Positions 2,862-48,711 of a DNA stretch of 64,000 nt are shown here, one piece after another. A model generated the notes under the pieces. It was not told where the DNA came from. It searched no databases and worked only from the letters and a program-made list of their open reading frames with translations. A program made the position numbers and the translations under genes. Each line of letters opens with the position of its first letter. Position 1 is the first letter of the stretch. The stretch is taken from positions 62,001 to 126,000 of the forward strand of contig JAFRJK010000005.1 of assembly GCA_017432305.1 (NCBI GenBank). Direction: 5' to 3'. The stretch comes from Candidatus Saccharimonadota bacterium (GTDB lineage Bacteria; Patescibacteriota; Saccharimonadia; Saccharimonadales; Saccharimonadaceae).

Positions 2862-3024
2862 GAAAATCACAAACCCTAAACCTAGATTACGGAACACTCA
2901 CGTCAAGAAAATCTCTTTTTCTATCCAGGCTCCGCCAAGAAACTTGTGCTCGCGTGGTATAGAAAAAGAGATTTTCGTTGGTTCGTGTTTTTAGTGTAAT
3001 CTAGGTTTAGGTTTGCTGATTTTC
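2862..3024. repeat. 163-bp long inverted repeat at the left edge of cassette cluster 1
   Basis: Outer arms 2862-2890 and 2996-3024 are complementary over about 27 of 29 bases, with termini GAAAATCA and TGATTTTC. Inner arms 2907-2924 and 2959-2976 are a perfect 18-bp match, leaving a loop at about 2925-2958. It starts three bases after the valS stop and ends about 20 bases before the tail of cassette A. A shorter element with the same ends sits in the same position beside cassette G (13739-13799). It could be a terminator-like 3' end of an ancestral gene or a MITE-like element; no target-site duplication is evident. Confidence 0.75.
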
Positions 3025-3039: not shown

Positions 3040-3250
3040 TATTCCTTACGCAACGGATAGATCTTCCGAAGCCTCTCACAGTGCCAGCATCCGCTCTAAC
3101 GTAAGATACTGGACCAGCGTCTATTCCAGTATCCATGTAGTGCGCTTTATCTTCATCAAGAGCGGTTTTGGCCCATAATACGGCGCTCGTTATTCGTCTC
3201 CCGATATTCCCAAAATGTCGCTCATACATCCCACCCCTCCAAAAATCCAA
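3040..3250 (-). other. Silent cassette A (variable C-terminal module, triad 1)
   Basis: Minus-strand open segment starting TTGGATTTTTGG and reading LDFWRGGMYERHFGNIG, ending VRGFGRSIRCVRN. It has no ribosome site and no ATG; the leading TTG belongs to the shared head. It keeps the cassette pattern DFWRGG, variable middle, then RGFGxxIRC. The frame stays open past the tail to 2921 through the hairpin DNA. It lies head to head with cassette B, with about 40 bases between the heads. Confidence 0.7.
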
Positions 3251-3291
3251 GATAGTACTAAAGCTATAATGTCCTAATATTGTTCTGTTGA

Positions 3292-3495
3292 TATTTTTGG
3301 AGGGGTGGGCATTACTATCTGTCAGATGGCGGTCTCTGGGGACGTGCTGTCGAGGGTCGCTGGTGGCAGTCGGTACTATATTCGAGCACCGAAGGTTGTT
3401 ATATATCTCTAAGAGTTGAGAATGGTACTGCTATCAGTTGGTTACCTGGTTATGGTGCTAGGGGTTTCGGGATTTCTATCTGTTGCGCAACGGAC
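3292..3495 (+). other. Silent cassette B (triad 1)
   Basis: Plus-strand open segment of 68 codons reading YFWRGGHYYLSDGGLWGR, then an RWWQS block, then GARGFGISICCATD. A TGA lies immediately upstream in frame, so it cannot be translated from upstream as it stands. The usual Arg of the R-C-A-T-D tail is Cys here. Its last 18 bases overlap the end of cassette C in the opposite orientation at the palindrome TGTTGCGCAACGGA. Confidence 0.7.
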
Positions 3496-3687
3496 AACAC
3501 GCCCACCATCACGACGCCAACCATAGGCAGGATGTATTTCGGCAGTGCCATTATTCACATAAGTAGCTAAAGTAAAAGCGGCAGAAGAGGAGGTAGCCCT
3601 TCTCGACCACCAACGCCCGTTGTGTTCCCGGCCAAATATCGCACCAGAGTCTCCCACATTATAATACCCACCCCTCCAAAAATCCAA
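3478..3687 (-). other. Silent cassette C (triad 1)
   Basis: Minus-strand open segment of 70 codons reading LDFWRGGYYNVGDSG, an NGRWWSRRATSS block, and GGRVVRCATD at the palindromic tail shared with cassette B. It is the only cassette with a strong Shine-Dalgarno and ATG upstream (3755-3771 on the same strand), but that start is in a different frame (see the 32-codon ORF at 3659-3757). Confidence 0.72.
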
Positions 3688-3757
3688 GAGAGTAAAAATA
3701 AGTCCCCGTAGGGGGTGACGAGGCTTTATAGCGAATCTGGAATTCTAATACACCCAT
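3659..3757 (-). CDS. Short ORF with a strong ribosome site leading into cassette C out of frame
   Basis: On the minus strand AAAGGAGGTG (3771-3762) precedes an ATG at 3757 with near-ideal spacing. Translation gives MGVLEFQIRYKASSPP, then TGTYFYSLGFLEGWVL and a stop at 3659. The reading passes through the head repeat of cassette C in the frame that yields GFLEGW rather than DFWRGG, so a one-base shift would fuse it to the cassette. It may be the remnant of an expression-site 5' end, or a spurious ORF. Confidence 0.35.
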   Translation of the reverse strand: MGVLEFQIRYKASSPPTGTYFYSLGFLEGWVL

Positions 3758-3898: not shown

Positions 3899-4099
3899 TA
3901 TGCAACGGATAAACATTCCCATACTTTTTGGCGGATAGAAGTTGACTACTCCAGCGTCGACGCCAGATTCGAGTGAAGTATTGGAAGTGAGACCGACTAT
4001 AGCACTTGTGCCAGTAGTGCGGCCGGACCAATAGCCTGGCACAGTACGGCTTGAAATTCGACCGTTACCACCGACAATTACCCCACCCCTCCAAAAATA
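3899..4099 (-). other. Silent cassette D (triad 2)
   Basis: Minus-strand open segment of 67 codons: YFWRGGVIVGGNGRISSRTV, a GYWSGRTTGTSA block, then SMGMFIRCI at the tail. The head is GATATTTTTGGAGGGGTGG, the same variant as in cassette B. After the tail the frame continues for about 30 codons to a stop. It lies head to head with cassette E; the roughly 50 bases between the heads contain a TAAGTTTA/TAAACTTA hairpin. Confidence 0.7.
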
Positions 4100-4151
4100 T
4101 CAACAGAGCAACTTTAAGTTTATAGGTAAACTTATCAGAAATAGTGTTCTC

Positions 4152-4364
4152 TTGGATTTTTGGAGGGGTGGTGAATATGCTTATACTTACGGGAACGTGC
4201 ACGTACGTACTCAGTGGGGGCGAATTTGGTATAACCGTGCTACTGGGTCCGATCGTGCAGCTGACGCTAATCTAGGTCTGCATACTGGGGGCAGCACTAC
4301 CTTTGTGCACCATGGCTGGGCGGATATTCGGGGGTTCGGGTTTCCTCTCCGTTGTGCAACGGAT
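4152..4364 (+). other. Silent cassette E (triad 2)
   Basis: Plus-strand open segment of 71 codons: LDFWRGGEYAYTYGNVHVRT, a WGRIWYNRATGSDRAA block, then IRGFGFPLRCATD. No start or ribosome site. The last 18 bases overlap cassette F in antisense with matching codon register, so each codon of the R-C-A-T-D tail faces a codon of the partner's tail. The frame stays open across the antisense of F to 4583 as a by-product. Confidence 0.72.
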
Positions 4365-4568
4365 GAAATTCCCGAATCCCCTCAAATCATTGGTAGCGGG
4401 GTAAATCGCACCGTAAGCGGCAACTCCGCTAGGGTATGTGATTTCGGTATGGAGTACAATTCCTCCCGTGCTATTACCCGCCTGCGACGTAAGGAAGTGG
4501 CTTTGTTCGAGATAAGCGCCGATACTACCATACGAACGAGCATATCTCCCACCCCTCCAAAAATCCAA
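4347..4568 (-). other. Silent cassette F (triad 2)
   Basis: Minus-strand open segment of 74 codons: LDFWRGGRYARSYGSIGAYL, a variable middle, then LRGFGNFIRCTTE. Tail overlaps cassette E at CCGTTGTGCAACGGAT. The region upstream of the head on this strand (4569-4617) is AT-rich with no obvious ribosome site or promoter. This is the right-hand end of cluster 1, about 50 bases from the DUF1653 gene. Confidence 0.72.
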
Positions 4569-13799: not shown

Positions 13800-14017
13800 T
13801 CTACGCAACGGATTTGAAATCCATACGTGCGCTGGTCGTAGCTGAATAACACATTTGACTTAAGAACGCCATTATGCGAAGTTAAATATATCCCAAGCCT
13901 ATAGCCATCATTATTGGAGCCAGACAGGTTTCCCCACCAACGACCGCCACCAGCTCGGCTCCAACCCACTCTACCGTCCTTAGAGGCGTAATATCCCGCA
14001 TTACTCCAAAAATCCAA
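13772..14017 (-). other. Silent cassette G (triad 3)
   Basis: Minus-strand open segment with its own stop: LDFWSNAGYYASKDGRVG, a GGRWWGNLSG block, YGFQIRC, then VEKISEDYQI and TAA at 13772. The head is diverged (WSNAG for WRGG). Upstream DNA shares ACTTATTTTTACTC with cassette C. This is the clearest view of how a complete member of the family may end, since the tail and stop are continuous with the GAAAATCA element. Confidence 0.7.
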
Positions 14018-14059: not shown

Positions 14060-14260
14060 AATTTTTGGAGGGGTGGGAATGCTGCATGGCAAGGTGGTGT
14101 GCATGGTCGAACAGTTGCCAGTCACCGATGGGAGAATTTTGCATTTAATTTGACGACTTCTTATGCTTTTGGCGCATGGTCTGATGGAGGTTCAACCGGT
14201 GTTTATCTGCCAAATCAAAATGCCAAAGGCAATGGCTTTTCTCTCCGTTGCGTAACGAAT
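14060..14260 (+). other. Silent cassette H (triad 3)
   Basis: Plus-strand open segment of 67 codons: NFWRGGNAAWQGGVHGRTVA, SHRWENFAFNLTT, then GNGFSLRCVTN. No start codon or ribosome site. Overlaps cassette I tail to tail at CCGTTGCGTAACGAAT, again in antisense codon register. Confidence 0.7.
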
Positions 14261-14461
14261 AGAATATCCATTCCCCCGAACCACAATACCTTGCGGATTG
14301 AAAACAGTAGTACTGGGGCTGGTGGTAGTATTTATATTAGTACCAAAATAACTAATAAACTCATTATCAATGACACGGCTAGAGTAATAGCGATTTCCGA
14401 AAAGTCTATCAAGGATAGCATCATTGGTGCGGTCATATCTCCCACCCCTCCAAAAATCCAA
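14243..14461 (-). other. Silent cassette I (triad 3)
   Basis: Minus-strand open segment of 73 codons: LDFWRGGRYDRTNDAILDRL, a GNRYYSSRVIDN block, then VRGNGYSIRYATE. The tail Cys is replaced by Tyr because the shared palindrome carries GTA instead of GCA. Right-hand end of cluster 2; the ABC permease gene ends 10 bases away. Confidence 0.7.
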
Positions 14462-40427: not shown

Positions 40428-41474
40428 ATGAGTTTATTACGTGGCGTGGGCGACTTCTTCGCATTAGATATCGGTACGAATTCAATCCGTTTGATTCAAC
40501 TTTCTGGTGATGCGGAAAGGGGTTGGGCGCTTGAAAAATATGCTTATGTGCCGATTGATCCAAAAGTAGCTCTAGATGGTTCTGAGATTGGAAAGAGAAA
40601 GCTCGCCGAGACAATTTTAGGGGCGAAGGAACAAGCTGGGATTAGAACGAAAAACGTGGCATTAGGTCTTCCGGCAAGAAAGACTTACACCTCGATTATT
40701 GAAGTGCCAAATGCACCAAAGAAAGAGGTTGGAAAGACGATTCGTTATGAGGCAGATCAATATATTCCGATGGCGGTAGAAGAGGCAAAGGTTGATTTTG
40801 CAGTGCTTGGAGTTTCTCCAAATGATCCACTTAAGGCAGAAATTTTGATTTCTTCGACAGCGAAAGAATATGCTGAAGAGAGAATGGAAGATATTGAGAA
40901 CATCGGGCTTAATGTGATTGCGCAAGAGCCGGAGCCAATTGCAATGACGAGAGCGCTTGCACCGGTTGGAATGACAGATGGAAGAATGTTGATTGATCTT
41001 GGTGAAAAATCAACTGACCTAGTCGTGATTTATCAGGGAGCACCGAGGCTTGTGCGTTCAATTCCTGGGGGGTTGAATCAATTTGTCGAGACAGTTGCGG
41101 ACACACTTTCGGTACGTCCAGACCAAGCAAAACAATTTATCCTTAAATTCGGTCTTGCACAAGATAAACTTGAGGGGCAAGTCTTTAAAGCGCTTGATAG
41201 TTCACTCGAGACTTTCGCAATGGAAATGAGTAAATCAGTTAGATTCTTCCAAACAAAATATGTCGGTGCACAAATTGGAGGGATTATCCTCTCTGGGTTC
41301 GCTGGGATTATCCCGTTTATTGCAGAGTATATGGAAGTTAAGACGAATATCCCGACGATTCAAGGTAACCCTTGGCAATATGTACGTGTTACTCCGGAAC
41401 AACAACAGGCACTCCTCCCGGTTGCATCTGAGTTTGCAGTGGCGATTGGGCTAGCAGAAAGGAGCAACGAGTAA
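40428..41474 (+). CDS. pilM: Type IV pilus assembly protein PilM
   Basis: Actin-like cytoplasmic ATPase of the pilus alignment complex. 348 residues. FFALDIGTNSIRLIQL (phosphate 1 loop), NVALGLPARKTYTSII, MLIDLGEKSTDLVVIYQGAP (phosphate 2), and IGGIILSGFAGIIPFI (adenosine motif). Its stop overlaps the pilN start by one base, giving coupled translation. Confidence 0.93.
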   Translation: MSLLRGVGDFFALDIGTNSIRLIQLSGDAERGWALEKYAYVPIDPKVALDGSEIGKRKLAETILGAKEQAGIRTKNVALGLPARKTYTSIIEVPNAPKKEVGKTIRYEADQYIPMAVEEAKVDFAVLGVSPNDPLKAEILISSTAKEYAEERMEDIENIGLNVIAQEPEPIAMTRALAPVGMTDGRMLIDLGEKSTDLVVIYQGAPRLVRSIPGGLNQFVETVADTLSVRPDQAKQFILKFGLAQDKLEGQVFKALDSSLETFAMEMSKSVRFFQTKYVGAQIGGIILSGFAGIIPFIAEYMEVKTNIPTIQGNPWQYVRVTPEQQQALLPVASEFAVAIGLAERSNE

Positions 41475-42928
41475 TGGTGAAGAAGAAATTTGACTTTAAG
41501 ACGATGCACCTTAAAGATATTCCGAAATTTGCGATTGCATTCTTTAAGGGTGAGGTTGGCGATGAAGAAGAAATGATGACAACCCAAACTGGGTTTTATG
41601 AGATTAACCTCGTTCCAGACGTAAAAACTGAGATGATCAAAACCCAGAAAGTTCGAAACTTAGTTTTCTTCATTTGTATCATTATTAGTATCGCGTCAGT
41701 TTCGACGGTGGCGGTTTTAGGTTCGGTCAAAGGTGCACAAGATTTGACGATGACTGGTCAGGATAAACACCTCAAAAATCTTTCCTCGAAGATTTTAGGA
41801 TATGATGAACTCGCGGAATTCTTAACAGTTCAAAACCAGATTAATGGTGTTTCGAAAATTGAAGATAACCAAAAGGTTCTATCTCGTGCAGTTTCGTTCT
41901 TGAACTCACTACTCCCGAGTGGTGCAGATAAGATTGAGGTTTCGGAGCTTTCAATTGATTTAACGGAATCGACTTTGACGTTTGATGCACAAGCAAACGC
42001 AGGGAAGGAACCATACATCGATTATCGTGTGCTAGAAGCATTTATGAAACGTACAAACTTAATGACATTCGATTATGGGCGTTATGTTGATTCGACCGGA
42101 AATAACATCCCGTCGCGTTGTATCGAAGAATATGACCCTGTAAGTGGGAAGATGCATGAAGAGAATGGAAGCATCTATGCAATTTGGAAACGTGGCGAGA
42201 AGGGTTGCGACCCAACTCCAAGCGATAATTCCAACACTACGGAAGGATCTGCTACTGTTACGATTACTGATACAAGTGTAGATGCTACTAAAATGGTGAA
42301 CGGACAGTCGAGAACCGCCACAATTACTGGGCGTATCACTACATCGGCTGACTCTGATGGTAACCAAACTCGGGTGATTGAATATATCCCGAGCGAGAAG
42401 ATTTATCGTACCCCACAATTCACAAGTTGGCACAATGGCGATTCTTGGGACACCTCTAAAGATGGTGTTGATGACGTGATAATTAAACCGGGTGATGAGG
42501 CAACAAAAGTTAACATCACAAACCATGTATACACTCCGGTAATGGGGCTTGATGGTTCGATTTCGGGGATTCCACACTTTGATAGTAAATGCATTACTTA
42601 TTCTGGTGAGGAGACCGAAGAAAACGGTAAAAAGAATGTAAAATGGTCGGCAAATAATGAGTGCCAACTTGTTCCAGATGGGATTGTGATAAATAGCTCG
42701 TCAAATGGTCGTGATACGGACGATAATTTAGTGCTTCGTTTCTCAGCATTAGTTAAAATCAATGCGGATGCATTCGCGTTTAGAAATAAACATATTATGG
42801 CGATTGGGCCAAATAGTCAAAACGTAACTGATTCGTATGTCCAGCTCGAAAAAATCTTCGCGGCACCAGCAACAGATTGTTCTGCGGGTGACACGGAATG
42901 TCAAAATGCGAGAACAACAGGAGAATAA
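41474..42928 (+). CDS. pilN: PilN-like pilus assembly protein with a large extracytoplasmic insertion
   Basis: 484 residues against about 190 for typical PilN. A PilM-binding-type segment YEINLVPDVK precedes one membrane helix (about 60-82). The outer part has the usual coiled and ferredoxin-like stretch, then a Ser/Thr/Asn/Asp-rich region with TITDTSVDATK, DTSKDGVDDVI and several Cys (CIEEY, GCDPT, CITYS, CQLV). Assignment is by position between pilM and a pilO-like gene plus topology; the insertion may replace lipoprotein partners absent in a monoderm-like envelope. Confidence 0.75.
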   Translation: MVKKKFDFKTMHLKDIPKFAIAFFKGEVGDEEEMMTTQTGFYEINLVPDVKTEMIKTQKVRNLVFFICIIISIASVSTVAVLGSVKGAQDLTMTGQDKHLKNLSSKILGYDELAEFLTVQNQINGVSKIEDNQKVLSRAVSFLNSLLPSGADKIEVSELSIDLTESTLTFDAQANAGKEPYIDYRVLEAFMKRTNLMTFDYGRYVDSTGNNIPSRCIEEYDPVSGKMHEENGSIYAIWKRGEKGCDPTPSDNSNTTEGSATVTITDTSVDATKMVNGQSRTATITGRITTSADSDGNQTRVIEYIPSEKIYRTPQFTSWHNGDSWDTSKDGVDDVIIKPGDEATKVNITNHVYTPVMGLDGSISGIPHFDSKCITYSGEETEENGKKNVKWSANNECQLVPDGIVINSSSNGRDTDDNLVLRFSALVKINADAFAFRNKHIMAIGPNSQNVTDSYVQLEKIFAAPATDCSAGDTECQNARTTGE

Positions 42929-42930
42929 AA

Positions 42931-43878
42931 ATGGCAGAAATAGCAGTAGGAAAAAGAATTAAAATCAGTAAAATCCAACAGCACATGATGCTGGCAGTGC
43001 TTGGAGCTTCGCTCGTTTTTGGAGTTTCGCTAGTTTTGTCAATTTATTTCGTGAAATATATTATTTTCAATACAACAGTGATTAATGAAAAAGATGTAGC
43101 GATTGAAAATTACTATAAAGCAATTTCGAACGTTGGGATTTGTATTGATTCAAATGGTGATAAGAAGTTTACGGATAGGGAACTAGAAAAATGTGTGCCG
43201 AATGATATTGATGTAAACGATATTCAAGGTACTTTACGTTATAACGTTCTAGTTGGGATGACCGAAAACGAAGATCTTGAATCGGTGGCTAGAGAAGGGA
43301 TTTCTTCAACTTGTTATGACCCAGCAACGGGCAAGAAATTCAACTTTACGGAGCTTTACCAAAATGCAGAAACCGAAGAAGCTCGACAACAATATCTTTA
43401 TGATATTAAACTTTGTTCGTCGCTTCGCGTGATTCCAGATGCACTTCCAGCTTCGCAAAACCAAGAAGCACTTCTATCTTCGATGAATCAAATCTTCCTA
43501 CTTTCGGGGCTTCAGCCAGAGGCATTGTCGCCGAGCAACACCGGTGCAGTTTCGCCAGTTAATGGTCTTGAAGTGATTCCGATTTCAGTTTCGATTAAAG
43601 AAAATATCTTAAAATCTACAAGATTGCTCGAGAATCTTGAGCGTTCAATTCGCTCGTTCTACTTTACAAATGCAACGATTACTTGGAGAGGTGGGATGGA
43701 CGGTCAGACGAACCTTGAACTTGCGGCACAAGCTTTAGCATTCTATACGAACCAAGTTGAGGCGACTGAAACTCAGAAGACAATTTATGCTTCGGCAGAT
43801 GCAAAGAAAGCGAGCGGAACGACTGCAGCGGGTCAAACTGCGGTGGAGAAAGCAGAAAGTAAGGTAACGGGGAAGTAA
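42931..43878 (+). CDS. pilO: PilO-like membrane protein with an EF-hand-like loop
   Basis: 315 residues from ATG 42931, chosen because AGGAGAATAAAA precedes it; an ATG at 42898 in the pilN tail lacks a site. One membrane helix near residues 22-48, then an outer domain. Residues about 82-93 (DSNGDKKFTDRE) fit a 12-residue EF-hand loop with acids at 1, 3, 5 and 12, flanked by Cys (GICIDS...EKCV). Identity as PilO is by gene order and topology only. Confidence 0.65.
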   Translation: MAEIAVGKRIKISKIQQHMMLAVLGASLVFGVSLVLSIYFVKYIIFNTTVINEKDVAIENYYKAISNVGICIDSNGDKKFTDRELEKCVPNDIDVNDIQGTLRYNVLVGMTENEDLESVAREGISSTCYDPATGKKFNFTELYQNAETEEARQQYLYDIKLCSSLRVIPDALPASQNQEALLSSMNQIFLLSGLQPEALSPSNTGAVSPVNGLEVIPISVSIKENILKSTRLLENLERSIRSFYFTNATITWRGGMDGQTNLELAAQALAFYTNQVEATETQKTIYASADAKKASGTTAAGQTAVEKAESKVTGK

Positions 43879-43879
43879 T

Positions 43880-44317
43880 ATGAAACAATCAGATATTTTC
43901 TCAATTATCATTATCGGAACAGTCGGGACTTTAGCGGCTTATTTCGCAGTAAATGCTTTACTTGGTGATCCTAACTTACAATCGGTAACAATTAAGACGA
44001 TTGAAGAGATTTCGCCAGCTTTGACAGAACCAGATCCAGAACTTTTTAACTCAAACGCAATCAACCCGACGGTTGAGGTCTTGATTGATGGATGTGAGGA
44101 CGTGGATAAGAACGGAATTCTTTCAAGAGAAGAACTCATAAAGTGTAAAAAGATTGAAGATGACACAAAAGTTGAGGAAGAACAATCAAAATTAGTTTAT
44201 TGTCCAGATGGGACGATTGTGCTAGATAGCCTAGATAAATGTCCAAAAACCGAGAATAAACAAGAAGTGCCAGCTGAGGAACCTGAAAGGGAGCCTGAAA
44301 ATGGCACTACTGACTAA
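43880..44317 (+). CDS. Small membrane-anchored protein with an EF-hand-like loop, in the pilP position
   Basis: 145 residues. One N-terminal membrane helix (about 6-27), then an acidic outer segment. DVDKNGILSREE is a complete EF-hand-type loop between two Cys (GCEDVD...IKCKK). A second Cys pair lies in LVYCPDGTIVLDSLDKCPK, and the C-terminus is Glu/Pro-rich. I do not recognise the family. It sits where pilP lies in classical operons, but shows no lipobox or PilP similarity. Confidence 0.7.
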   Translation: MKQSDIFSIIIIGTVGTLAAYFAVNALLGDPNLQSVTIKTIEEISPALTEPDPELFNSNAINPTVEVLIDGCEDVDKNGILSREELIKCKKIEDDTKVEEEQSKLVYCPDGTIVLDSLDKCPKTENKQEVPAEEPEREPENGTTD

Positions 44318-46067
44318 AGAAATTCAAGAGAGAGTTGTTAAGCTGCTAGTTTCGGAGGGGCTAGTTTCGGCTGAACAAGTACAAGAAGCCCAGGCGGAGG
44401 TTTTAAAGACGAGACAGCCGATTTTGGCACTTCTTACATCAAAGAAAATCACAGATGATGAGACGGTGAGTCATGCAACGGCTTCGGTGATGGGGGTGCC
44501 GTATGTTAATCTTAACAATGTTAGGATGGATACGGAGATTTTGACGTTGGTGCCGCACGAAGTGGCGGAACGCTCGATGGTGGTGCCATTAGGCGAGAAA
44601 AATGGGACACTTTACGTCGCGATGCTCGATGCGCAGAATGTCCAATCGACAGATTATCTTGCAACATTAGTCCAAAAACCAATTCGCACGATGATGGCGA
44701 GCGAGGTAGGCTTAAGAGCAGCCCTCGCACAATATCAAGGTGACTTTTCGGCGGTTGATAAAGCGGTTAAATCTGCAAACCAGGAAGTGGCGCAGAAAAC
44801 CGCGAACGCGGACGTAAAAACGATTACACAAGATTCGCCAATTTCGAAGGCGCTCGCTACAATTCTCGAATACGCGGCACGTTCGAAAGCGTCTGATATC
44901 CATATTGAACCGCTTGAAGATTCGCTTGTGATTAGATGTAGGGTTGATGGTGTGCTTCGAAAAGTGATGGACCTTCCAAAGTCGATTGAGCCGGCATTAG
45001 TTTCGAGGATTAAGATTTTGGCAGACCTTAAAATTGATGAACACCGTATTCCGCAAGACGGTCAGTTTACAGTTTCGGTGGCAGGGAAAGAGATTGACCT
45101 TCGTATTGCAATTTCGCCAGTAGTATGGGGTGAGCAAGTGGTGATTCGTCTTCTTGATAAAAGCGGTACAACGCTTAATATTGAGACAATGGGGATGGCT
45201 GGGCATGCACTTGCGATGGTTGACAGAGGAATCTCGAAGCCAAACGGAATGATTCTAACTTCTGGCCCGACTGGCTCTGGTAAATCGACGACTTTGTATG
45301 CTTTGATTACAAAAATTTTCGATGAGAAGATTAATATTGTTACGCTTGAGGATCCGGTTGAGTATAAGATGGATGGCGTAAACCAAATCCAGGTGAACGT
45401 TGACGCTGGGTTAACTTTTGCAGCTGGACTTCGTTCGATTTTACGTCAAGACCCGGACGTAGTGATGGTTGGGGAGATTCGTGACTCAGAAACGGCAAAT
45501 CTCGCAGTCCAAGCGGCGCTTACCGGTCACCTAGTCTTATCGACACTTCACACGAACTCGGCAGCAGGTATCTTGCCAAGGCTTCTTGATATGGGAATTG
45601 AGCCATTCCTCTTAGCGTCGACACTTAATACGGTGATTGGCCAGCGATTAGTTCGACGTGTGGCAGATAAGAGGGAGGCATATAACTCGACAGATATTGA
45701 AACGAAACAAATTAATGACTTAATTGGTTCGCTTTTGCCACAGAGCCAAGAACAAGTGGCAGTAGTGTCGGATGATTTAGGCTATCCTGGGTTGCCAGTA
45801 GTAAGCCAAAGTGGGTACACTTTAGTTAAAGGGGTAGAGGACCGTGATACACCAGGTGGGTATAAGGGGCGAGCTGGTCTTTATGAGACAATTGAGGTGG
45901 ATGATGATATTCAGAAACTCGTGATTTCACATTCGACTTCGAGCGAGATTATGAAGATTGCAAAGATGAAGGGAACGCTTACAATGCGTCAAGATGGAAT
46001 GCTTAAAGCGCTCTCTGGGATTACGACGATTTCAGAGGTGAATAGGGTGGCATCCGACCTTGCTTAA
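44301..46067 (+). CDS. pilB: Type IV pilus extension ATPase PilB (GspE family)
   Basis: 588 residues. N-terminal MshEN-type domain (LLVSEGLVSAEQVQEAQAE), then the ATPase: SKASDIHIEPLEDSLVIRCR, RIKILADLKIDEHRIPQDG, Walker A TSGPTGSGKSTTLY, Asp box VTLEDPVEYKMDGVNQ, Walker B RQDPDVVMVGEIRDSETA, His box LVLSTLHTNSA. The tetracysteine zinc module before GYKGRAGLYE is absent; a Ser/Gln-rich stretch of about 70 residues is there instead. AAGGGAG precedes the ATG, which overlaps the previous gene by 17 bases. Confidence 0.95.
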   Translation: MALLTKEIQERVVKLLVSEGLVSAEQVQEAQAEVLKTRQPILALLTSKKITDDETVSHATASVMGVPYVNLNNVRMDTEILTLVPHEVAERSMVVPLGEKNGTLYVAMLDAQNVQSTDYLATLVQKPIRTMMASEVGLRAALAQYQGDFSAVDKAVKSANQEVAQKTANADVKTITQDSPISKALATILEYAARSKASDIHIEPLEDSLVIRCRVDGVLRKVMDLPKSIEPALVSRIKILADLKIDEHRIPQDGQFTVSVAGKEIDLRIAISPVVWGEQVVIRLLDKSGTTLNIETMGMAGHALAMVDRGISKPNGMILTSGPTGSGKSTTLYALITKIFDEKINIVTLEDPVEYKMDGVNQIQVNVDAGLTFAAGLRSILRQDPDVVMVGEIRDSETANLAVQAALTGHLVLSTLHTNSAAGILPRLLDMGIEPFLLASTLNTVIGQRLVRRVADKREAYNSTDIETKQINDLIGSLLPQSQEQVAVVSDDLGYPGLPVVSQSGYTLVKGVEDRDTPGGYKGRAGLYETIEVDDDIQKLVISHSTSSEIMKIAKMKGTLTMRQDGMLKALSGITTISEVNRVASDLA

Positions 46068-46079
46068 CGAAAGTGGTTA

Positions 46080-46088
46080 TGGTAAAAT
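46080..46088 (+). promoter_or_regulatory. Internal promoter before pilT
   Basis: TGGTAAAAT between pilB and pilT, with a leader of about 27 bases; would allow separate control of the retraction half of the operon. Confidence 0.5.
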
Positions 46089-46115
46089 AAAAGGAAGAAA
46101 ATAAGGGTAGGTAAC

Positions 46116-47492
46116 ATGCAAAACGAAAATCCAGTAGAAGAAACTATGCCGACTGCACCAGAGATGGAAGCGCAGACGGGAACTCAAGTTGGTACTCCGA
46201 CTAGTATACCGATTGAGGCGCCGGCTGAAGTATCAGCAGAGGACTCGGCTGAGACAAACGAGCCAGGCTCTGATGTTCCGGTAGCACAAGAGACGGCTTC
46301 GGTGACTGATCATAGTATGGTCCAATCATCGACTCCAACTAATGATGCAGATTTTAATTCGGCAGTTCCGACGACAAGTACAATCGCGGCGGCAGCTGCG
46401 GCAGCATCGACTCCGACAGCAGTGCCATCTTCTGTTCGTATCGAAGTTTTGCTTGAAGAATGTATTAAGAAAAATGCATCTGATATCCATATCCAAGTTG
46501 GTCTTCCTCCGATTCTTCGTATTGATGGTGCTTTACAACCTATCCAAAACACTCCAATTTTAACCGAAGATATGGTCGAAAAACTTGTCTTTTCGACGCT
46601 TGACTCGATGCAACGCGAAACCCTTTCGAAAGACAAAGAGTTCGATTATTCGTTCTCGTTCGGCGATGTGGCACGTTTCCGTGTTAACGCCTTTAATGAA
46701 AAAGGGAATCTTGCGGCGGCATTTCGTCTTATCCCGACAAAGATGCCGACAATTGATGAGCTGGGTATGCCACAAGTGGTTTCGACCTTTGCAGATTTCC
46801 CACGTGGCTTAGTCCTTGTTACAGGTCCTACTGGTTCTGGTAAATCTACTACTCTTGCAGCTTTGATTAATAAAATTAATACTGAAAAATCGGTCCATAT
46901 CGTCACGATTGAGGATCCAATTGAGTTTACACACAAGTCGAAACGTTCGGTTGTAGTTCAACGTGAGGTCCATTATGATACATTCTCATTTGCACGGGCT
47001 TTGAAGTCGGTACTTCGCCAAGATCCAGATGTCGTGCTTCTTGGTGAGATGCGTGACCTTGAAACTATCTCCTCGGCAATCACGATTGCAGAAACGGGAC
47101 ACTTAGTCTTCGCAACACTTCACACAAACTCGGCAGCACAGTCGATTGACCGTATGGTTGACGTGTTCCCAGCAGAACAACAACCACAGATTCGTTCACA
47201 ACTTTCGGCGGTCTTAATGGCGGTTTGTTCGCAACGTCTTATTCCGGCAATTGGTGGTGGACGTGTCGTTGCAGCGGAAATTATGATTGCAAACTCGGCA
47301 GTTAGATCAATTATTCGTGAAGGTAAAACTCACCAACTCGATACAACGATTCAGACTGGTGCGAACGAAGGTATGCAGACGATGGATAGAACGCTTGCGA
47401 AACTCGTTCAACAGGGAACTATTACTTATGATAATGCACGTGAATATGCAGTTGATATGCACGAATTTGAAAGGTTAGTGAAGGGCATTTAA
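46116..47492 (+). CDS. pilT: Type IV pilus retraction ATPase PilT, with a low-complexity N-terminal extension
   Basis: 458 residues; about 105 N-terminal residues are Ala/Thr/Pro/Glu-rich and probably disordered. The core starts at IEVLLEECIKKNASDIHIQVG, with Walker A VTGPTGSGKSTTLA, Asp box VTIEDPIEFTHKSKRSVV, Walker B RQDPDVVLLGEMRDLETI, His box LVFATLHTNSAAQSIDRM and the PilT signature AAEIMIANSAVRSIIREGK. Powers pilus retraction. Confidence 0.95.
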   Translation: MQNENPVEETMPTAPEMEAQTGTQVGTPTSIPIEAPAEVSAEDSAETNEPGSDVPVAQETASVTDHSMVQSSTPTNDADFNSAVPTTSTIAAAAAAASTPTAVPSSVRIEVLLEECIKKNASDIHIQVGLPPILRIDGALQPIQNTPILTEDMVEKLVFSTLDSMQRETLSKDKEFDYSFSFGDVARFRVNAFNEKGNLAAAFRLIPTKMPTIDELGMPQVVSTFADFPRGLVLVTGPTGSGKSTTLAALINKINTEKSVHIVTIEDPIEFTHKSKRSVVVQREVHYDTFSFARALKSVLRQDPDVVLLGEMRDLETISSAITIAETGHLVFATLHTNSAAQSIDRMVDVFPAEQQPQIRSQLSAVLMAVCSQRLIPAIGGGRVVAAEIMIANSAVRSIIREGKTHQLDTTIQTGANEGMQTMDRTLAKLVQQGTITYDNAREYAVDMHEFERLVKGI

Positions 47493-47499
47493 AAGCTAA

Positions 47500-48711
47500 A
47501 TGAAGCGATTTACATATAGAGCTAGGGACAGCAAGACTGGAAAGATCGTTAAAGGGGCGATCCAAGCTGAGAGTGAAAGAACTGCTGGCAAGCTTTTGAT
47601 TGAACAGGGATTTACGCCTGATAAAATCGTGGAAGAGGAAGAAGGCGGTCTTTTATCGCGTCTTCAAAATAAAATTAGAAATAAGGATAAAAATGTCTTC
47701 ACGAGGCAATTTGCAACGCTTATTGGGGCGGGGTTGCCACTTTCAAACTCGCTGAGAGTGGTGGCGGAGCAAACTCAAAGTAAGCCAATGCGAAAAGTGA
47801 TTGAGGCGTTGCTTTCGGACGTGGAAGCAGGTAAGACGTTAACTGAAACATGCCAGAAATACCCAGATGTGTTTGATAATCTCTATATTGCATTACTTCG
47901 TGCAGGTGAGACGTCCGGTACACTTGATTTATCGTTGATACGCCTAGCGGATCAGAAGGAAAAAGACGAGAAGATGATGTCCGATATTCGTGGTGCGTTA
48001 ACTTACCCAGCAATTATTTTACTTGTGATTATCGCAGTTTTAATCTTTATGGTGCTCGTGGTTGTGCCACAAGTTGAAGATCTTTACCATGATCTTGGGA
48101 AAGAGCTCCCTTGGGCAACGGCATTTTTAGTTGGAGTTTCGAATTTTATTATCGAGCAATGGTTTGTGGTTTTGATTGTGCTTGCGGTTGCGGTATGGTT
48201 CTTAATCCAGTTTACGAAGACGGATGTTGGGAAGAGATGGGGTGCGATTATAAAGCTAAATGTCCCGCTATTTAAGGGATTATTCCTTCGACTCTATAAC
48301 GCAAGATTTGCGAGGACGGCACAAAACCTACTCTCAACTGGTGTTTCGATTCAAGATTCGCTTCGGATTTCGGGTGAGGCAATTGGAAATATCATGGTTC
48401 AAGAACAAATTGAAATTGTGATGGAAAAAGTGAAACAAGGTAAGCCACTTTCGGAATCTTTAAAGTCAAGAAGTTATATCTTACCACTCGTTCCGCAGAT
48501 GGCGTCGATTGGTGAGCAATCCGGTAAAATCGATGAGATGCTAGGGAAGGCGGCAACGGTCTATGAGAATGAGCTTGATGAACAAATTCGAACGATTTCT
48601 ACCTTAATCGAGCCAATTTTAATGGTGGTGATGGCACTCCTTGTTGGATTTATCGTGATTGCGGTCTTAATGCCAATTTACGCAATCGTTTCGGATGTTC
48701 AAAGCGGATAA
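47500..48711 (+). CDS. pilC: Type IV pilus inner-membrane platform protein PilC
   Basis: 403 residues with two T2SSF repeats: FTRQFATLIGAGLPLSNSLR with LSDVEAGKTLTE, and FARTAQNLLSTGVSIQDSLR with VKQGKPLSESLK. Three helices sit at about 170-195, 220-240 and 375-400. The N-terminal TYRARDSKTGKIVKGAIQAE segment is intact. Works with PilB and PilT at the membrane. Confidence 0.96.
   Translation: MKRFTYRARDSKTGKIVKGAIQAESERTAGKLLIEQGFTPDKIVEEEEGGLLSRLQNKIRNKDKNVFTRQFATLIGAGLPLSNSLRVVAEQTQSKPMRKVIEALLSDVEAGKTLTETCQKYPDVFDNLYIALLRAGETSGTLDLSLIRLADQKEKDEKMMSDIRGALTYPAIILLVIIAVLIFMVLVVVPQVEDLYHDLGKELPWATAFLVGVSNFIIEQWFVVLIVLAVAVWFLIQFTKTDVGKRWGAIIKLNVPLFKGLFLRLYNARFARTAQNLLSTGVSIQDSLRISGEAIGNIMVQEQIEIVMEKVKQGKPLSESLKSRSYILPLVPQMASIGEQSGKIDEMLGKAATVYENELDEQIRTISTLIEPILMVVMALLVGFIVIAVLMPIYAIVSDVQSG

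Follow-up and report, generated by a model that had tools for sequence, protein, structure and literature searches.

The window, a stretch of 64,000 nucleotides from the genome of a Candidatus Saccharimonadota bacterium, contains in its first 15 kb 8 copies of the motif TTTTTGGAGGGGTGGG (7 exact, one with 1 mismatch), where dinucleotide shuffling gives an expectation of 0.10 for the whole window. The same region holds a series of short silent coding cassettes. They are related to a variable region (VR) of the kind that diversity-generating retroelements (DGRs) rewrite from a template repeat (TR). The genome is a draft of 747,863 bases in 8 contigs, denoted C1 to C8. The features concerned are, in window positions:

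3050..3244, minus strand: cassette A, silent (FWRGG...IRC), head at 3230-3246, tail towards the ValRS gene
3230..3309: two inverted heads and the 52-nt head-to-head spacer of cassettes A and B
3295..3486, plus strand: cassette B, silent, first half of the convergent pair B-C
3478..3495: tail palindrome of B-C, imperfect ATCCGTTGCGCAACGGAT, centre at ~3486/3487; fits a VR-type, not a TR-type, retroelement 3' end
3487..3681, minus strand: cassette C, silent, second half of pair B-C, adjoining B at the tail palindrome
3902..4096, minus strand: cassette D, silent
4082..4172: inverted heads and spacer of cassettes D and E
4158..4355, plus strand: cassette E, silent
4356..4562, minus strand: cassette F, silent, convergent partner of E
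~13805..14012, minus strand: silent cassette with a degenerate head (FWSNAG..., IRC tail), limits approximate
14063..14251, plus strand: cassette H, silent
14252..14455, minus strand: cassette I, silent, convergent partner of H

An earlier note on this DNA had described the convergent pairs as units bounded by inverted copies of the head. The three pairs it named are real, with inverted arms at 3293-3326/3650-3683, 4147-4192/4528-4573 and 14061-14078/14440-14457. As local boundaries the repeats hold at the pairs, but the motif is also found outside them, at cassettes A and D and at the degenerate cassette at ~13805-14012, as well as genome-wide.

Cassette design and genome-wide layout

Over the whole genome the head TTTTTGGAGGGGTGG occurs in 123 copies (61 forward, 62 reverse); the reversed control pattern was found 4 and 0 times, respectively. 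With each copy of the head begins a cassette of ~65 codons that closes on IRC. Read in frame, the copies consist of a head (D/Y)FWRGG, ~60 variable residues, and a tail such as RGxGFxIRC; a Pfam search of the window cassettes alone gave no match. In this way ~115 VR-type cassettes without the N-terminal part of a gene are dispersed over the genome, often as tail-to-tail pairs. The heads alternate in orientation, resulting in 36 convergent pairs of 378-409 bp each, with 42 head-to-head spacers between them, most of which measure 40-60 nt. The tails of a pair join in a palindrome whose ideal form, ATCCGTTGCGCAACGGAT, encodes IRC-ATD on either strand. The open frame upstream does not exceed 96 aa for any assembled cassette, with the sole exception of one at the end of C8 (501 aa).

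The cassettes are conserved in two different ways. Open frames are found in 109 of 114 cassettes (random-frame expectation ~3%), and length changes among the old ones come in multiples of a codon. The arginine codon of the head is AGG in 109 of 109 cases, while AGG makes up 10% of the arginine codons in cassette interiors, and the tail reads CGTTGC in 84 of 107 cassettes. Head codons that are frozen at the level of DNA, together with frames that stay open, imply that the ends are conserved for a DNA-level reason and the interiors as protein. Only 10 similar pairs exist among 108 cassette sequences, and nearly all copies have an interior of their own. One window cassette with a counterpart on another contig is E, which is 91% identical to C7:88508 and has the central tract in common with it.

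At window 3244-3295, at 4096-4158 and at 40 further sites, the spacers can be grouped into families of modular build, in which one end is of the GTTGGATT type and the other of the TAGTATT type. The spacer between D and E recurs unchanged at C2:220, and close copies lie at C1:78115 and C5:62249.

The expression locus and its retroelement

The sole assembled copy with a long N-terminus is located at C8:9291-10856 (GTG start at C8:9291, 501 residues upstream). It encodes a protein of surface type with a membrane-like N-terminus, and a FISUMP domain is matched with an E-value of 7.7e-9, below the curated cut-off. The start of C5 continues this gene through a contig overlap of 72 bp. We infer the join of C8 and C5 from this overlap; in the closest relative (G027) the same order of target, accessory gene, reverse transcriptase (RT) and TR is found on one contig. 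On C5, the end of the target protein is followed by an open reading frame (ORF) of 331 aa, an RT of 375 aa (C5:1279-2403, RVT_1 with E 2.8e-9, motif YVDDF), and an adenine-rich copy of the VR on the other strand, the TR. Mismatches between VR and TR fall on TR adenines in 17 of 17 cases over positions 9-166, the remainder being confined to the 3' homing region. Judged by its sequence, the expression locus is a DGR: an RT of YxDD type stands beside the target, TR and VR differ in an adenine-restricted manner, and the VR forms the C-terminus of a target of ligand-binding type.

The C-terminal half of the target, that is the VR, is tentatively assigned a C-type lectin-like fold, since the best matches to a structural model of the G027 orthologue are C-type lectin-like chains, at a modest Z of up to 6.5 (VIA-align). 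Foldseek found no significant match of the target model in the PDB, and a profile search of PDB sequences returned none. The ORF between target and RT is a candidate accessory protein. Such an ORF is kept in several DGRs (L068:291-1286, L092:5141-5977 and L204:7326-8684, encoding 331, 278 and 452 aa, respectively); for one of them a Pfam search revealed no family above the cut-off. The ends of C6 and C8 share an identical 141 bp and the start of C8 is the end of a VR, hence the expressed VR is probably present once more, between C6 and C8.

In the genome's own cassettes, variation is found above all at the TR's AAY codons (mean entropy 3.68 bits; P below 5e-5 by permutation). Two of these cassettes (C7:66331 and C7:66774) derive directly from today's TR, with mismatches at 6% and 13% of non-A positions and at 37% and 57% of adenines, respectively. 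The remaining cassettes have 40-65% non-A mismatch to the current TR and are nearly all mutually unrelated. Those in the window likewise have no close non-A match to it, and are homologues of the VR, not products of the present TR.

Silent copies in relatives of the same genus

RTs of this type are encoded in 44 of 120 relatives searched. Named records retrieved with an RT alignment as query belong to Candidatus Saccharibacteria, mostly from the ruminant gut. The exact 15-base head TTTTTGGAGGGGTGG was not found in 59 relatives, and a 14-mer of the head, GATTTTTGGAGGGG, is present in just 3 of 173 other genomes of the genus, in one copy each. Relatives have different heads in the same arrangement, with profile matches, mostly in short frames, numbering 85 in G095, 66 in G193, 52 in G022, 32 in G184 and 28 in G011.

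Compared with their own TR, the pooled silent copies differ at 1.7% of non-A and 47.8% of A positions in G011, at 5.3% and 37.5% in G184, at 7.4% and 39.7% in G022, and at 7.5% and 45.7% in G169. A match of 92-98% at non-A bases combined with differences at 37-48% of adenines identifies the silent cassettes of these four relatives as DGR products; part of the copies in G095, also without N-terminus, exhibit the same adenine-specific difference. In G169, 23 of 28 in-register copies have a non-A mismatch of only 0-5.6%. The TR of this genome (L203:8345-8518) is located ~28 kb from the RT (L204:6041-7333) on the same contig, which is unusually far for a DGR. G095 was compared with two templates, and information comes only from the one that matches, TR1; new copies (2-12% non-A) and old copies lie next to each other in ~215-bp tandem arrays. 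The same genome has 14 convergent pairs around CTCTCCGC..GCGGAGAG, tail to tail and palindromic as in the genome of the window. These pairs are built from different sequence, so the paired layout arose with unrelated ends. The cassettes of G193 show no A-bias against the template candidate picked, and were left out of this comparison. The closest relative, G027, has only a VR and a TR, without further copies. In G078 and G143 the strategy is a different one: many target-like genes of full length take the place of short silent cassettes.

Because adenine changes are random, a shared run of them serves as a fingerprint. In G169, two unlinked cassette pairs have all 24 and 23 mutated sites in common, a further pair shares 11 mutated sites over nt 31-141 and differs only 5' of these, and another shares 16. 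In G095, C3:14547 and C8:13 share 14 mutations over nt 3-114 and differ beyond. In shuffled data, shared runs reach at most 9 and 7 mutations. Long common tracts of random mutations in unlinked cassettes indicate, at the level of sequence, that DNA is copied between silent sites in these relatives, sometimes segmentally.

Proposed library of variants and alternative explanations

We propose, with a probability of roughly 0.65, that the cassettes constitute a DGR-fed library of silent VRs, whose conserved ends would be the homologous stretches for gene conversion between cassette and expressed gene. The parts of this proposal are not equally firm. We have high confidence in the identity of the cassettes as a DGR-related library of silent VRs, and lean towards a function in recall. 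The odds are about even for a complete two-stage system, in which retroelement hypermutation of a lectin-like surface domain is combined with a recallable, genome-wide store of silent, palindromically paired cassettes. In such a system, the DGR would make new variants by adenine mutagenesis, as sequences from this genome and its relatives show; variants would be deposited at silent sites, where they are seen as products; and cassettes would exchange segments by DNA copying, as seen in relatives. Heads and tails might then serve as short homology arms for copying a cassette into the expressed gene, either via RecA, whose gene is present in the genome, or via DGR complementary DNA (cDNA), and the cell would switch among stored variants besides acquiring new mutations. 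The paired layout would be a storage form, perhaps placing an inverted repeat immediately behind the homing site of each cassette.

DGR homing sites carry an inverted repeat (PMC12875486), and the tails of unpaired cassettes are followed by a hairpin (z below -1.5) in 36% of cases versus 11% of control stretches; the silent cassettes may therefore be homing targets themselves. According to the same study, of 2026, priming takes place within the template RNA and the cDNA homes at single-stranded target DNA (PMC12875486). Given this priming, an origin of the pairs by target-primed reverse transcription on both strands of the palindromic tail is not favoured.

A number of observations weigh against the proposal. 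The transfer of silent cassettes into the expressed gene is inferred rather than directly evidenced, the expressed VR is accounted for by the current TR alone, and the homology arms are short (head ~26 nt, tail ~12 nt). Apart from the two recent products on C7, the genome's own cassettes are old, and their DGR origin is argued from homology and from analogy with relatives. Some of the tracts shared in relatives could be simple duplications. Finally, the assembly is a draft of 8 contigs, in which the expression gene is joined across an overlap of 72 bp.

Among the alternatives, the one that survives best, albeit unlikely, regards the cassettes as ectopic targets or by-products of the DGR, generated by off-target retrohoming or duplication and rewritten in trans, yet never expressed and without a role in storage. 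The silent copies in relatives are real DGR products, the VR-type 3' end is kept, the excess of hairpins recalls DGR homing sites, and a survey of 2019 recorded dozens to hundreds of VR copies for a single template (PMC6642488). By-products should decay, however, whereas the old cassettes remain open and retain fixed head codons, though their interiors are near saturation, and the paired layout recurs in G095.

It is distinctly improbable that the cassettes were taken from other strains by DNA uptake, such that the library would be a record of the VRs of neighbours. Indeed, hardly any of the genome's own cassettes are related to one another, and matches to the current template are few. The window also encodes type IV pilus genes that can serve DNA uptake (PilM, two T2SSE ATPases and T2SSF, 40428-48711). 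Against this, a donor with the same ends was not seen, as none of the 173 other genomes of the genus contains GATTTTTGGAGGGG in numbers, and the cassettes of relatives match their own template. The pilus operon had been offered in the earlier note as a possible surface partner of the cassettes; the operon is real, but nothing links it to them.

The same note took the pairs for invertible units following the logic of the phage Mu G segment and the R64 shufflon, in which a site-specific recombinase acting between the heads would switch the C-terminus of an adjoining gene. This logic finds no support here, and we consider inversion very improbable. As in R64 and Mu, convergent C-terminal half-ORFs lie between inverted sites, and repeated cassettes at assembly ends give alternative joins (the end of C1 with the start of C2 and the end of C5). 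Unlike in these systems, the units are spread over ~30 loci and no constant gene adjoins the pairs: the flanking head is that of another cassette without N-terminus, and no array other than the DGR locus has a constant region beside it. Flipping B-C would merely exchange two cassettes, because both are without N-terminus. The Pfam matches revealed neither a Gin/Hin-type invertase nor an Rci-like gene; the recombinases comprise one XerC/D-like protein, one integrase of phage type and two large serine integrases, none of them small serine recombinases and none beside the arrays of the window. A local invertible switch was rejected for want of both constant region and dedicated invertase. Relatives, moreover, have different heads, as well as tandem direct arrays incapable of inversion, and point to hypermutation and segmental copying instead. 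What remains of the suggested swap of C-terminal modules is that the cassettes are interchangeable modules for one constant N-terminal region, which exists only at C8:9291-10856, joined to C5. A search of IMG/VR for contigs of the same species, on which orientations could be compared, yielded none.

Equally improbable is a mobile repeat, MITE-like (miniature inverted-repeat transposable element) or centred on the spacer, with terminal ATCCGTTGCG repeats and incidentally carrying VR-like sequence: spacers do share a modular build within families, and a unit of the order tail-head-spacer-head-tail can be drawn, but the unique interiors are the opposite of recent transposition and track the codons of the DGR template, and the same cassettes occur in relatives, where that spacer is missing.

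The proposed library of silent VRs combines traits of several known systems. With DGRs of the Bordetella BPP-1 type and of clade 2 in the candidate phyla radiation (CPR)/Patescibacteria (Roux et al. 2021, PMC8144416) it shares RT, TR and accessory ORF, the adenine-specific change from TR to VR, a C-terminal VR in a lectin-like target, and differing 3' ends of VR and TR. In contrast to these, the genome of the window and several relatives hold dozens to ~120 gene-less VR-only copies in arrays or palindromic pairs. DGRs whose VRs are remote or multiple (cyanobacteria, PMC7517822; PMC6642488; Thiohalocapsa, PMC10907252) likewise have many VR copies far from the RT, some of them acted on in trans. 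These are described as VRs of mostly full-length targets, a strategy seen within this genus in G078, whereas the cassettes here lack an N-terminus. Like Borrelia vls and Neisseria pilE/pilS, the system has a single expression site (501 aa upstream versus at most 96 aa), many silent, partial copies whose short ends are conserved, and mosaic tracts. It differs in that an RT generates the interior diversity, in that cassettes are dispersed and often tail to tail, and in that conversion into the expression site is so far a proposal.

Surveys near the RT overlook remote targets (PMC8144416), and those confined to the surroundings of the RT overlook silent cassettes as well. Multi-VR DGRs and remote full-length targets are already known, while we found no description of a library of silent VR cassettes: VR-only silent cassettes are unmentioned in PMC7517822, PMC6642488, PMC10907252 and PMC8144416, and prior notice in the main paper on CPR DGRs (Paul 2017) is possible.

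DGRs are thought to overwrite a single VR, losing each earlier variant. If the proposal is true, variants are stored, and perhaps reused, in a genome of 0.7 Mb, variant memory in DGR hosts becomes directly testable, and retroelement mutagenesis is tied to classic silent-cassette gene conversion. The immunoglobulin genes of birds, which use hypermutation and conversion from pseudogenes, follow a logic resembling the two-stage system. Saccharibacteria live on other bacteria, and the target is plausibly an adhesin facing either the host or phages.

Two minor observations concern the contig ends. The end of C1 overlaps both the start of C2 and the end of C5, with the same half-cassette at the overlap and one base different. 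These overlaps, and likewise those of C1, C7 and C3, may reflect either a collapsed duplication or cassettes at which the genome can be joined in more than one way. Next to cassette loci, and at the ends of several contigs, lies a repeated hairpin, CTCTTTTTCTAT...ATAGAAAAAGAG, that is no part of the cassettes (window 2913-2970, start and end of C1, start of C3, start of C7).
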